From an uncultured Clostridia bacterium (lineage in GTDB: Bacteria; Bacillota; Clostridia; Christensenellales; Borkfalkiaceae), in assembly GCA_944343275.1 (NCBI GenBank), contig CALVMH010000018.1:1-33818 (forward strand): a DNA stretch of 33,818 nt, in the 5' to 3' direction. Below the pieces are notes generated by a model. That model had not been told where the DNA came from and searched no databases. It saw only the letters and a list, made by a program, of their open reading frames with translations. This document shows, piece by piece, positions 937 to 7,156 of the stretch (position 1 is its first letter; every line of letters starts with the position of its first letter). Made by a program: the position numbers and the translations under genes.

Positions 937-1797
937 ATGACAAAAAAACAGACTGCCGTCTTTTTGTCCGTCGTGCTGGCGATCTGCGCCGCGCTCATCG
1001 TCGGCATCGTTCTGACGAACGGGCTGTATGAAAAGAATGCGGACATTCAGGAGTCCATGCAGGACGCCGTGCTGCACGAAGGGGACAAGATATGGCTGTT
1101 CGGGTTGCAGGTCAATCCCGGACTCATCTCCGCGTACATCGTGACGGGCGTCATTTTGCTGTTCGCGCTCGCCGTGCGCATCTTCGTCATCCCCAAATTC
1201 AAGACCATCCCCGGCAAGTTCCAGCTCGCTTTGGAATCCGCCGTCGGCATGTTCGACAACATGGCGCGGACAAACAGTCCGCACCGCAACAACTTTCTGG
1301 GTGCGTACATCTTTGCGGCGGCGGCGTACATCTTCCTCGGAACGCTCTTTGAACTTGCGGGCGTCCCGTGCGTGACGGCGGCGGGGGAGTGCGTCATCCT
1401 GCCCGCGCCCCTCTCCGACATCAACGGCGCCATCGCGCTCGGCTTTTTGTCCTACTTCATCATCCTTGCGGGCGGCATCGCCGCCAACCGCGCGCGGGGG
1501 CTGGGGCGCGCGCTCAAAGAGTTCTCCATCCCCATCTCCATGAGCTTCCGTCTCTTCGGCGCACTGCTGAGCGGGCTGCTCGTCAGCGAACTCGTGTATT
1601 CCTATCTCTCCCTTTCCTTCGTGCTTCCCGTCATCGTCGGCGTGCTCTTTACGGTGCTGCACGCGCTCGTGCAGGCGTATGTGCTCGCCATGCTCACGGC
1701 GCTCATCTACGGGGAAGTGACGGAGCCGTATGTCAAAAAACGCAAAAACCGTGTTGCAAAACACGAGACAACTTCCGAAAAAGAGGTGACTGTATGA
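937..1797 (+). CDS. atpB: F1Fo ATP synthase subunit a
   Basis: Subunit a forms the ion half-channels of the Fo sector in the cytoplasmic membrane. The 286-residue protein has an N-terminal membrane segment (about 7-29), further hydrophobic helices, and the signature helix IPISMSFRLFGALLSG containing the essential arginine (FRLFG). The usual RLFGN is RLFGA here. The conserved PLSDIN segment (equivalent of P-x-x-D-x-N) and the glutamine of the last helix (ALVQAYVLAMLTALIY) are present. First gene of the operon; GAGGAGGTG precedes the ATG at 937. Its last codons overlap the start of atpE by four bases (ATGA). Confidence 0.96.
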   Translation: MTKKQTAVFLSVVLAICAALIVGIVLTNGLYEKNADIQESMQDAVLHEGDKIWLFGLQVNPGLISAYIVTGVILLFALAVRIFVIPKFKTIPGKFQLALESAVGMFDNMARTNSPHRNNFLGAYIFAAAAYIFLGTLFELAGVPCVTAAGECVILPAPLSDINGAIALGFLSYFIILAGGIAANRARGLGRALKEFSIPISMSFRLFGALLSGLLVSELVYSYLSLSFVLPVIVGVLFTVLHALVQAYVLAMLTALIYGEVTEPYVKKRKNRVAKHETTSEKEVTV

Positions 1798-2207
1798 ACA
1801 GACTGATGTGGAAAAAAAGCATGTTGATCTTCTCGATCCTGGCGGCGGTTGTGTTTGCCGTCCTCCTTGTGTGCGGGCTGGCGGAACGGTCCGTTCCCGC
1901 GTTTGCCGAGACGTCCGTCGAGCAGACGGCGGAGACGGCGGAAACGCAGACGGACGCGCAGGAGACCGCTGCGGAGGACGACGGAACGGGCTGGAAGGCG
2001 ATCGCGGCGGGCGTCGCCATCGGGCTTGCGGCTGCGGCGGGCGCCGTCGGCATGGCGATCGCCATCGCAAAGACCAACGAATCCATCGCGCGGCAGCCCG
2101 AGGCGGAGGGCAAGATACGTTCCAACTTCATGCTGGGGCTGATCTTCATCGAGACCGCCATCATCTACGCGCTCGTCGTTGCGATCCTCATCATCTTCGT
2201 GCTCTGA
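1794..2207 (+). CDS. atpE: F1Fo ATP synthase subunit c with signal peptide and acidic N-terminal extension
   Basis: The rotor-ring subunit, 137 residues against the usual 70-90. Start chosen at the ATG in the ATGA overlap with atpB, preceded by AAAGAGGTGA. Residues 1-38 look like a signal peptide (KK, long hydrophobic core, VPAFA then ET). Residues 39-67 are a linker with nine acidic and no basic residues. The c hairpin follows: helix 1 about 69-92, the conserved loop ESIARQPEA (R100-Q101-P102), helix 2 about 111-136 with carboxylate E120 followed by T121. Aligned on the RQP loop to Ilyobacter tartaricus c, the Q32 position is Met87, and GxGxGxGxG becomes AxAxAxGxA (A80, A82, A84, G86, A88). 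Coupling ion (H+ or Na+) cannot be decided: E-T resembles Na+ enzymes, the missing Gln does not. Confidence 0.94.
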   Translation: MNRLMWKKSMLIFSILAAVVFAVLLVCGLAERSVPAFAETSVEQTAETAETQTDAQETAAEDDGTGWKAIAAGVAIGLAAAAGAVGMAIAIAKTNESIARQPEAEGKIRSNFMLGLIFIETAIIYALVVAILIIFVL

Positions 2208-2217
2208 GGGGGCGCCC

Positions 2218-2715
2218 ATGCCTTTGAATATCGATTGGCAGCAGATCCTGCTGCACCTTCTCAACTTCGTCATTCTCTTCGCGGGGCTGTGGCTGCTGCT
2301 CTATAAGCCTGTCAGAAAGTTCATGAACGCGCGCAGGGAGACGTATGAGAAGGCGGATGCCGACGCCGAACAAAAGCGTGCGGAGGCGGAACGGCTGCGC
2401 GCCGAGTATGAGAAAAAGCTCGCCGACGCCGACGTGCAGATCGCCGAACGGCGCGAGCGCGCCCGCAAAGAGGCGGAGGCGTATGAAGAGGAGCGCTGCC
2501 GCGCCGCGCAGCAGCAGGCGGAAGCTATCCTCTCCGAAGCGCAGGCAAGCGCCGAGCGCGAACGGCAGCGCGCCGTGAAGGAGGCGCGCGGCGAGATCGC
2601 GGACCTCGTCGCGTCCGCCACGGAAAAGCTGGTTTTGCACGAGAGCGCGTCCGAGGCATACGATCAGTTCCTCGACGCCGTCGAGCACGCTGACAACAAC
2701 GGAGGCAAGGCATGA
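2218..2715 (+). CDS. atpF: F1Fo ATP synthase subunit b
   Basis: Peripheral stalk subunit of 165 residues. The start is the ATG at 2218, ten bases after the atpE stop, with GAGGGGG overlapping that stop codon as the ribosome-binding site. One membrane helix near the N-terminus (about 9-27, [17 protein letters not shown]) is followed by a long charged coiled coil rich in Glu, Arg, Lys and Ala (about 30-145), as in normal b subunits. No delta sequence is fused to its C-terminus, unlike the mycobacterial b-delta fusion. It overlaps the next gene by four bases (ATGA). The partner of its C-terminal end, delta, exists here only as a domain attached to alpha. Confidence 0.94.
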
Positions 2716-4450
2716 AGCGCCGCGCCGTTCTGTATGCCGCCGTGCCTCCGGACGAAGGTCAGAGGGCGCGGTTTTCGGCATTTCTCGAAAAAAAATACGG
2801 CGAGGCGTTCGACCTCGAATTCCGCGAGAGCGCACTCTTTCCGGGCGGGTTCCGCCTCGAAGCCGGCGCGGAAGTGTACGATTGGAGCGTGGGCGGCAGG
2901 TTCCGTCAGCTGCGCGACACCCTCACGCAGGTCGCGGGGGAGGAGGGGAGCATCATCCCCCTCATGCGCACGGCGCTGGCAGGCTGGACGCCCGCGGCGG
3001 TCGCCGAAGAGGTGGGCACGGTGCGTGCGGTCGGGGACGGCATCGCCTTTGCCGACGGGCTTTCGCACGCCGAGTACGGCGAGATTTTGCTTTTTTCGGA
3101 CGGCACGCGCGGCATGGTACAGACGCTCTCCAAGGAGGGCGTCGGCTGTATCCTGTTCGGCGATGACGGCGCGGTGGAAGAGGGCAGCACCGTCCGCCGC
3201 ACCAAAAAGAGGGCGGGCATGCCCGTAGGCGAGCGCTTTCTGGGGCGCGTCGTCAACGCGCTCGGCGACCCCGTGGACGGCAAGGGCGCCGTCGAAGCGG
3301 ACGGATACCGCCCCGTCGAAGCGCCCGCGCCCTCCATTCTCGACCGTCAGCCCGTGAACGAGCCGCTCGAAACGGGGCTTGTCGCCATCGACAGCATGTT
3401 CCCCATCGGGCGGGGTCAGCGCGAACTCATCATCGGCGACAGGCAGACGGGCAAGACGGCGATCGCCGTCGACACCATTCTCAATCAGAAGGGGAAGGGC
3501 GTCGTCTGTATCTACGTCGCCATCGGGCAAAAGGCAAGTTCGGTCGCGCGCCTTGTGGAGACGCTCAGAACGCGCGGCGCCCTCGATTACACCATCGTCG
3601 TCAACGCCTCTGCGGGCGAGTCGGCGTCCATGCAGTACATCGCGCCCTATGCGGGCTGCGCGATGGGCGAATACTTCATGGAGCGCGGAAGGGACGTGCT
3701 CATCGTCTATGACGATCTGTCCAAGCATGCCGTCGCCTACCGCGCGCTCTCCCTGCTGTTGGGGCGTTCCCCGGGGCGGGAAGCGTACCCCGGCGACGTG
3801 TTCTATCTGCACTCCCGCCTTCTGGAACGTGCGGCGCACCTCTCCGAAGCGCGCGGCGGCGGATCGATGACCGCGCTCCCCGTCGTCGAGACGCAGGGCG
3901 GCGATGTCTCCGCCTATATCCCGACGAACATCATCTCCATCACGGACGGGCAGATTTTTTTGGAGAGCGCGCTCTTTTTTGCGGGGCAGCGTCCCGCGGT
4001 CAACGTGGGGCTCTCCGTCTCGCGCGTGGGCGGCGCGGCGCAGACCAAGGCGATGAAGAAGGCGGCGGGGACGCTGCGCCTCGATCTTGCGCAGTACCGC
4101 GAGATCGAGGTGTTCACCCAATTTGCAAGCGACCTCGACGAGGCGACGCGCCGCCAGCTCGCTTACGGGCAGGGGCTCATGCGCCTGCTGCGCCAGCGGC
4201 AGTCCAGCCCCGTTCCCACGGAGGAGCAGGTCGTCGTCCTCGTGGCGGCGCTTGCACGCGTCATGCAGGAGCTTCCCGCCGAACGGGTGGAGGACTTTGC
4301 GGCGCGCCTCAGGGCGTGGTTCGTGCAGAACGAGGCGCCCCTCATGGAAAGCATCCGCAGGACGGGTACGCTTTCGGAGGAGGAGAAGGCGCACATCATC
4401 GCGTGTGCGGAGGCATTCGCCCGCCGCGATGCGGAAGGCGGGGAGCGCGT

Positions 4451-4454
<4 letters not shown>
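2712..4454 (+). CDS. atpA: Fusion: ATP synthase delta C-terminal domain joined to alpha subunit
   Basis: A 580-residue protein. Residues about 4-73 match the C-terminal domain of subunit delta (AtpH): a beta strand, a helix with [12 protein letters not shown] in the position of the delta AGV/GGV turn, then [16 protein letters not shown] in place of IDGSVRGRLERL. From about residue 74 a complete alpha subunit follows: N-terminal helix region (78-95), [13 protein letters not shown], Walker A GDRQTGKT at 242-249 (169-176 in E. coli, an offset of 73), and the catalytic-interface arginine in SVSRVGG. The six-helix N-terminal domain of delta is absent, and no free atpH lies between atpF and atpA. 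There is no stop or frame change at the junction. Overlaps atpF and atpG by four bases each. See the findings for the stoichiometry problem. Confidence 0.94.
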
Positions 4455-6747
<2,293 letters not shown>

Positions 6748-6748
6748 G

Positions 6749-7156
6749 ATGTTCATGCTGCGCGTGCTCGCCGCCGACAAACCGTTTTACGAAGGGGAAT
6801 GCGCCTCGCTCGTCGTTCCCACGCTGGACGGACAGTACGGCGTGATGGCGGGGCACTGCAACACCATCCTTGCCATCGTTCCGGGAACGCTCACCTTCCG
6901 CACGCCGGACGGCGGCATGCAGGCGGCGGCGGTCGCCGCGGGCATCATGAAGGTGGAAGGGGACGAGACGCTCGTTCTGGTGGACTCCGCCCTCCGTCCC
7001 GATGAGGTGGACGAGGTGCGTCAGCGCCGCGCCGCGGATGAGGCAAAGGAGGCGCTGCTGCAAAAGCGCAGCATCGAGGAGCATCATGCGGCGCAGGCGC
7101 GCCTTGCGCGTGCCCTCGCGCGGCTGAGCGTCAAAAGCAAGTACGGCAGAAGATAA
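6749..7156 (+). CDS. atpC: F1Fo ATP synthase subunit epsilon
   Basis: 135-residue epsilon subunit, the regulatory part of the central stalk. The N-terminal beta-sandwich (about 1-85) has the family signature segments FYEGECASLVVPTLDGQYGVMAGH and GIMKVEGDETLVLVDSA. The C-terminal part (about 88-130) is a charged helical hairpin. One base separates it from atpD, and GGGGGAGG in the end of atpD serves as ribosome-binding site. Last ATP synthase gene; there is no clear terminator before comEC 29 bases downstream, so read-through is likely. Confidence 0.94.
   Translation: MFMLRVLAADKPFYEGECASLVVPTLDGQYGVMAGHCNTILAIVPGTLTFRTPDGGMQAAAVAAGIMKVEGDETLVLVDSALRPDEVDEVRQRRAADEAKEALLQKRSIEEHHAAQARLARALARLSVKSKYGRR

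Follow-up and report, generated by a model that had tools for sequence, protein, structure and literature searches.

In-frame fusion of the C-terminal domain of subunit delta to subunit alpha in a clostridial ATP synthase operon, a possible natural multi-stalk layout

The locus and the fused gene

The window, by which we mean the whole stretch of 33,818 nucleotides that was analysed, carries a complete set of F-type ATP synthase genes, arranged as a, c, b, delta/alpha, gamma, beta, epsilon (Table 1). All eight subunit families are recognized by Pfam in open frames of this operon. The stop codon of atpF overlaps the start codon of the fusion gene (ATGA), and the stop codon of the fusion gene overlaps the start of the gamma gene likewise.

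Table 1. Features of the ATP synthase operon in the window, and the two b-delta(CTD)-alpha genes found at other loci
Feature	Position	Strand	Remarks
atpB, subunit a	937..1797	+	286 aa; Pfam PF00119, 57.9 bits
atpE, subunit c	1794..2207	+	137 aa; N-terminal extension of about 65 residues; PF00137 at residues 70-133
atpF, subunit b	2218..2715	+	165 aa; Pfam PF00430, 74.0 bits
delta(CTD)-alpha fusion gene	2712..4454	+	open frame, 580 aa; the main finding
delta C-terminal domain, residues 4-71	2721..2924	+	OSCP profile match and AF2 fold
join and alpha N-terminal helix, residues 72-101	2925..3014	+	ends before barrel Gly102
alpha barrel, nucleotide-binding and C-terminal domains	3015..4454	+	Pfam and TIGR00962 matches
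atpG, subunit gamma	4451..5350	+	Pfam PF00231, 295.1 bits
atpD, subunit beta	5347..6747	+	Pfam PF00006, 247.8 bits
atpC, subunit epsilon	6749..7156	+	PF02823, 68.8 bits; PF00401, 26.2 bits
b-delta(CTD)-alpha gene	L133:3895-6105		open frame, 745 aa; record RUG13159
b-delta(CTD)-alpha gene	L151:3829-6093		open frame, 769 aa; record RUG282

The initial annotation proposed that the atpA product begins with a delta subunit reduced to its C-terminal domain and continues in frame into alpha, and the profile searches bear this out. Residues 4-71 of the product match the Pfam OSCP profile (PF00213) at positions 104-172 of its 172 positions (cut-off 22.3 bits), scoring 27.3 bits when the entire protein is searched and 31.7 bits when its first 93 amino acids are. 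The remainder is a full alpha subunit with the domains ATP-synt_ab_N (residues 98-164), ATP-synt_ab (222-437) and ATP-synt_ab_C (444-569); TIGR00962, the atpA profile, covers residues 81-572 at 728.5 bits, where the cut-off is 484.45. The Walker A motif GDRQTGKT lies at residues 242-249, where it had been placed before, and its start presumably corresponds to position 169 of E. coli alpha. All of its residues are invariant except Q245, and the catalytic stretches of the fused alpha are conserved in the alignment.

By our own domain boundary, 32 residues lie between the end of the delta domain and the alpha barrel. In an AF2 model of the fusion protein, residues 3-74 form a strand, a helix, three strands and a helix, with block pLDDT values of 79-88 over residues 1-70, and a further helix at residues 81-90 is, judging from the alignment, probably the alpha N-terminal helix. 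Note that the model, calculated from 14 sequences, is poor in the alpha core (mean pLDDT 65, pTM 0.49). The delta N-terminal domain, the helical bundle said by the initial annotation to be missing, gave no match anywhere in the window operon to a profile that we built from 48 full-length deltas, which very divergent domains may escape. At the level of sequence comparison, the atpA product is confirmed as a delta C-terminal domain placed in frame ahead of a complete alpha, without the delta N-terminal domain.

The draft genome that contains the window consists of 92 contigs and is 92% complete, so that a second gene set could sit in the missing 8%. It gave one match each to OSCP, atpA (TIGR00962) and atpB, all inside the operon; the absence of a separate atpH from the operon, noted earlier, thus holds for the genome-wide search as well, the single OSCP match (profile positions 102-172 of 172 in this search) being the one in the fusion. 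Since a single alpha gene was found, all three alphas should carry a delta domain, and each F1 is expected to bear three of them. Outside the operon there is a distant match to the alpha/beta family (G000:C35, 26% identity).

Forms of delta across operon loci

We examined 137 operon loci and recovered alpha in 136 of them. Delta is complete and free at 65 of the 136 and fused as delta(CTD)-alpha at 46; a free delta without a recognized N-terminal domain occurs at 14, four of them doubtful (L147, L156, L202 and L216). A complete delta fused to alpha was found at six loci and a b-delta(CTD)-alpha chain at two, and at the remaining three no delta lay within reach. Free deltas that show the C-terminal domain only are those of L065, L066, L070, L071, L075, L076, L077, L079, L209 and L215.

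Eight loci with a free delta C-terminal domain belong to the window's own order, and the loss of the N-terminal domain therefore does not require fusion. Taken together with the six loci that have both the link and the bundle, these eight loci, which have neither, indicate that the two changes are separable. The idea that a covalent link to alpha makes the bundle unnecessary is thus only partly supported. In both of the complete-delta-alpha genomes that were checked (those of L093 and L103), a second, unfused alpha is present.

Several irregular arrangements were also seen. L090 has a tandem pair of delta C-terminal domains ahead of alpha, and L225 (G276) and L269 (G440) each have a separate delta with two C-terminal-domain matches in one frame. 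At L137 (Paenibacillus sp. D2_2) two different open frames hold the N- and C-terminal domains of delta, perhaps through a frameshift.

In the two b-delta(CTD)-alpha chains (L133 and L151), ATP-synt_B, OSCP and the three alpha domains all score over their Pfam cut-offs. L133 was assigned to this form by hand, as our own b profile missed its b domain, which Pfam confirms barely over the cut-off (29.9 versus 28). The chain is the only alpha found in either genome, and in both a short separate b gene lies directly upstream; the two alphas differ much in the alpha tree. RUG in the names of both records presumably stands for rumen genomes. A search for b-delta-alpha in the phylum sample of 299 genomes returned 15 matches, all in frames of 159-204 aa, the size of an ordinary b, and the form therefore rests on these two loci. 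Judged from its sequence, the b-delta-alpha chain is the strongest natural hint of a multi-stalk enzyme, as every alpha would bring along a membrane-anchored b.

Occurrence among genomes

The same fused gene is present in 10 of the 36 other genomes of the genus, and in one more (G028) the F-type operon has delta as a free C-terminal domain. In the other 25 of the 36, an F-type alpha was not found: ten gave no match at E <= 1e-20, and 15 (among G001-G036) gave weak matches only, at 25-27% identity, which are perhaps V/A-type subunits. The operon is accordingly patchy in the genus, occurring in 12 of 37 genomes with the window's own included.

Over the own genome, the genus and the order, 28 of 61 genomes have an OSCP match over the cut-off, of which 19 are fused to alpha, eight are a free C-terminal domain and one (G047) is complete. 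For 21 of these 28, profiles of alpha and delta were used to check the frame; the remaining seven are same-genus genes, each in one open frame that matches the window protein from residue 1-5 onward.

The class sample comprised 293 genomes, each at least 90% complete, and 168 of them have an OSCP match. A new result is that delta and alpha share a single open frame in at least 37 of these 168 delta-bearing genomes. The alpha profile confirmed 29 of the 37, and eight were assigned by frame length alone (639-679 aa); seven class genomes with two matches (G066, G083, G115, G126, G202, G235 and G252) were left out of the second look. Eight of the 37 match more of delta than the C-terminal domain, and at the three of these eight loci that were tested (L194, L195 and L207) the delta N-terminal domain is present.

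In the phylum sample, at least 10 of whose 299 genomes come from the class, 247 genomes have an OSCP match, mostly with a strong whole-delta score. Among those re-queried, 11 genomes outside the class have the fusion, nine confirmed by the alpha profile and two (G444 and G666) assigned by frame length; genomes with multiple matches (G415, G421, G482, G501, G517, G535, G572, G588, G596 and G651) were left out of the re-query. A scan of contig records returned the best 80 matches, and counts from these are no census.

In five single-contig genomes from other families (G123, G191, G081, G296 and G417), the fused gene is the only alpha, whereas a canonical operon exists alongside the fused one in G110, G266, G217, G181, G328, G136 and G263. 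An assembly error at the join, considered in the initial annotation, was rejected, since the same join occurs in the 10 same-genus genomes and in the five single-contig genomes.

Evolution of fusion and domain loss

A quick, unrooted tree of alpha was calculated from 121 rows, after 15 of the 136 loci had been dropped. The window falls in a group of 39 rows (SH-aLRT 99) with 30 delta(CTD)-alpha, six complete-delta-alpha and three free complete deltas. The complete-delta-alpha rows suggest that in this group fusion came first and domain loss later. Another group of 20 (SH-aLRT 99) includes the eight loci of the own order with a free delta-CTD, together with nine fused loci from other families of the order; its mixture of free and fused delta C-terminal domains, with no complete delta, suggests that here domain loss came first. 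Fused rows also form groups in families f62, f99 and f47, and in f120 and other families beyond the class.

Constraint tests were carried out on 85 chosen alpha rows with a quick LG+G4 tree, the groups being set by delta state after the tree had been seen. Joining the 47 fused rows into a single group costs 460 log-likelihood units (p-AU 1.6e-50), and a single group of all 54 rows without the N-terminal domain is likewise rejected (p 8.5e-10). Because both constraints are rejected, fusion and domain loss were each repeated or moved between lineages; that the fused forms do not make up one clade is a new observation.

The subunit c genes of the window's branch differ from the usual type. In the window, the extra N-terminal residues look like a signal peptide by eye and are followed by an acidic linker. 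An N-terminal extension of 35-78 residues occurs at most loci of the branch and is common to the fused relatives; these c subunits are also poor in the usual helix-1 glycines and have a FIETAIIYAL-like stretch at the ion site. Of the loci that lack the delta N-terminal domain, 30 of 55 have the changed type, against 0 of 64 of those that possess it, a pattern chosen post hoc and counted without the doubtful L147, L156, L202 and L216. When relatedness is considered, there are two independent pairs on well-supported branches (four on all branches), too few to conclude; L156, L202 and L216 were again set aside here, and L147 was already out. L076 and L077, of the own order, have an alpha of another group together with a and c like those of the window, as though the membrane part had been swapped.

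Number of peripheral stalks

In the textbook view, an F-type ATP synthase has a single peripheral stalk and a single a-subunit, and its ion/ATP ratio follows from the size of the c-ring alone. In the available text of Ueno et al. 2025 (PMC12229609), it is argued that the delta N-terminal domain, by its position on the threefold axis, restricts the enzyme to one stalk. According to the same text, this domain was deleted from the delta of Bacillus PS3 and the C-terminal domain was fused to alpha; the resulting enzyme bound up to three b2 dimers through its delta domains and an a-subunit for every one of them, averaged about two stalks, and had a roughly doubled H+/ATP ratio (5.8 versus 3.0). Triple-stalk particles were rare in cryo-EM, ATP-driven pumping was lower, and stalks were readily lost, as reported there.

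We put the probability that the native enzyme of the window is a multi-stalk ATP synthase with a high ion/ATP ratio at about one half. In this reading, the only alpha found would supply the b-binding delta C-terminal domain three times per F1, and without an N-terminal domain on the threefold axis more than one stalk would become possible, as in the engineered enzyme. The native enzyme would then fill more than one delta domain with b2 and a, and the additional stalks and a-subunits per ring would raise the ion/ATP ratio. Since the layout is the same as that of the engineered enzyme, it would allow the same multi-stalk result; the shared anatomy with the 9JC1 construct and its up to three stalks, the single fused alpha gene of the window genome and of the five single-contig genomes, and the b-delta-alpha chains as the only alpha of two genomes all favour this reading. 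So do the Rnf-Nqr genes of the window genome, which is among the seven of nine genomes checked that have genes of this family. Rnf is a weak ion pump, and these genes fit life on a weak ion gradient, although they prove nothing.

Other evidence counts against a multi-stalk enzyme. Each operon has a single gene for a and a single gene for b, placed as usual, and one a gene was found in each of the nine genomes checked, the window's included. The rarity of triple stalks and the reduced pumping of the engineered enzyme, as described in the text available, point the same way, and the six complete-delta-alpha loci indicate that fusion can arise for other reasons.

The main rival explanation is a tethered single stalk, which we consider a serious possibility at rather less than even odds. 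Here the fusion would only anchor delta to F1 and fix its supply; one of the three delta domains would be filled by b2 and a, and the other two would stay empty, either because b and a are limiting or because extra a-subunits do not fit the c-ring. This reading would lead one to expect the single a and b genes of each operon, and likewise the ease with which the engineered enzyme is reported, in the available text, to lose stalks. At the complete-delta-alpha loci, moreover, three N-terminal domains would hardly fit one central site, so that unused copies seem to be tolerated. However, the engineered enzyme of like layout is described there as averaging about two stalks, and a tether to alpha leaves the free delta-CTD genes and the b-delta-alpha chains unexplained.

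The initial annotation had left it undecided whether three delta domains are made or only some alphas are fused. If fused and delta-free alphas were both produced, by internal initiation or cleavage, a complex might contain one fused alpha and a single normal stalk. A start-like codon with a Shine-Dalgarno-like site does occur in the linker at 5 of the 45 fused loci scanned (of 54; the other nine fell outside the pattern used). In the linker of the window gene, however, there is no in-frame start with such a site, the in-frame Met85 is replaced by Leu in L080 of the same genus, and a second alpha gene was not found. A conserved internal start that yields a delta-free alpha was therefore rejected; the question is largely settled in favour of three delta domains, and we regard mixed alphas as improbable. 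That the operon is decayed or non-working and the cell uses another rotary ATPase, as its patchiness in the genus and the distant match G000:C35 might suggest, is very improbable given its eight open subunit families, the conserved catalytic stretches and the five single-contig genomes in which the fused gene is the sole F-type alpha.

The multi-stalk reading can be extended, tentatively and at rather less than even odds, to a broad class. Loss of the delta N-terminal domain might mark multi-stalk enzymes in anaerobic Bacillota, reached repeatedly by way of a free delta-CTD, delta(CTD)-alpha or b-delta(CTD)-alpha, and accompanied in the window's branch by a remodelled c. Two or three stalks and a-subunits per ring would then be a normal way to a higher ion/ATP ratio, and b-delta(CTD)-alpha would fix one b anchor per alpha. 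By analogy, the high gear of the engineered enzyme may already exist in some natural ATP synthases. If natural delta(CTD)-alpha enzymes do carry two or three stalks, the textbook rule would not hold for many anaerobes, and larger c-rings would not be the only solution for living on weak ion gradients.

Comparison with known systems

The delta of the mycobacterial b-delta fusion is complete. The initial annotation held that this fusion is a different one, and we agree: the b of the window is a separate gene and delta is on alpha, so that membership in the mycobacterial type was rejected. In the available text of PMC5709465, the b-delta fusion of mycobacteria and Gordonia is adjoined by a second b gene; it too is a fusion of peripheral-stalk subunits, but its alpha is separate.

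The delta of N-ATPases is described as absent or fused with b (PMC11738941, in the part available), and N-ATPases without delta and with a longer b are mentioned in the available part of PMC5706428. As described in the former source, the b-delta of N-ATPases resembles the window in having the delta C-terminal domain without the N-terminal one, but carries it on b rather than on alpha, and the gene order given there is beta-epsilon-X-X-a-c-b-alpha-gamma as opposed to a-c-b-delta/alpha-gamma-beta-epsilon in the window. The window alpha scores 600.5 bits against the TIGR03324 cut-off of 750.5, and with the differing gene order we rejected membership in the N-ATPases. Among the loci examined, L279 (G577) is an N-ATPase-like operon whose b, a frame of 285 aa, has a delta C-terminal domain at its end.

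The same anatomy is found in the engineered delta-deltaN-alpha enzyme of PS3 (PDB 9JC1), as in the window too the delta C-terminal domain is in frame with alpha and the N-terminal domain is gone. Chain 9jc1_I is the best PDB match for the first 93 amino acids of the window protein; with the whole protein it aligns to residues 4-561 in one stretch and ranks fourth by score, after three plain alphas. In a Foldseek search with the AF2 model, the three 9jc1 chains rank 1-3 over 566-575 columns, whereas the others among the best 50 listed reach at most 522. The construct, as far as its published description was available, is man-made, comes from a thermophile and had its epsilon C-terminal domain removed; in contrast, the window epsilon still matches that domain. 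With their single alpha, free delta-CTD genes and b-delta-alpha chains, the window and its relatives separate domain loss from fusion, which the engineered enzyme combines.

The initial annotation knew of no described delta-alpha fusion; this did not stand, since Ueno et al. 2025 (PMC12229609) built one and, in the part of the Discussion available, named natural cases, namely Acidaminococcus fermentans and the UniProt entries G4Q3K6 and A0A1I2C5T3. By that description alone, the A. fermentans gene has the same fusion and the same missing domain as the window, and the two entries, compared by description only, have 'similar features' in the wording of that text. Of the open-licence literature on the Acidaminococcus ATP synthase and, judged by title and abstract, on multiple peripheral stalks, this was the only relevant paper found; a search there for the delta-alpha fusion under that name yielded none. 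In the available text of the open-licence papers on delta fusions and N-ATPases (including PMC5376962 and PMC6131620), we did not find the free delta-CTD or b-delta-alpha, neither of which was sought by name. The window is thus a further natural case of the delta(CTD)-alpha kind already described, and what is new is the free-CTD form, the b-delta-alpha form and the spread of the fusion beyond a single clade.
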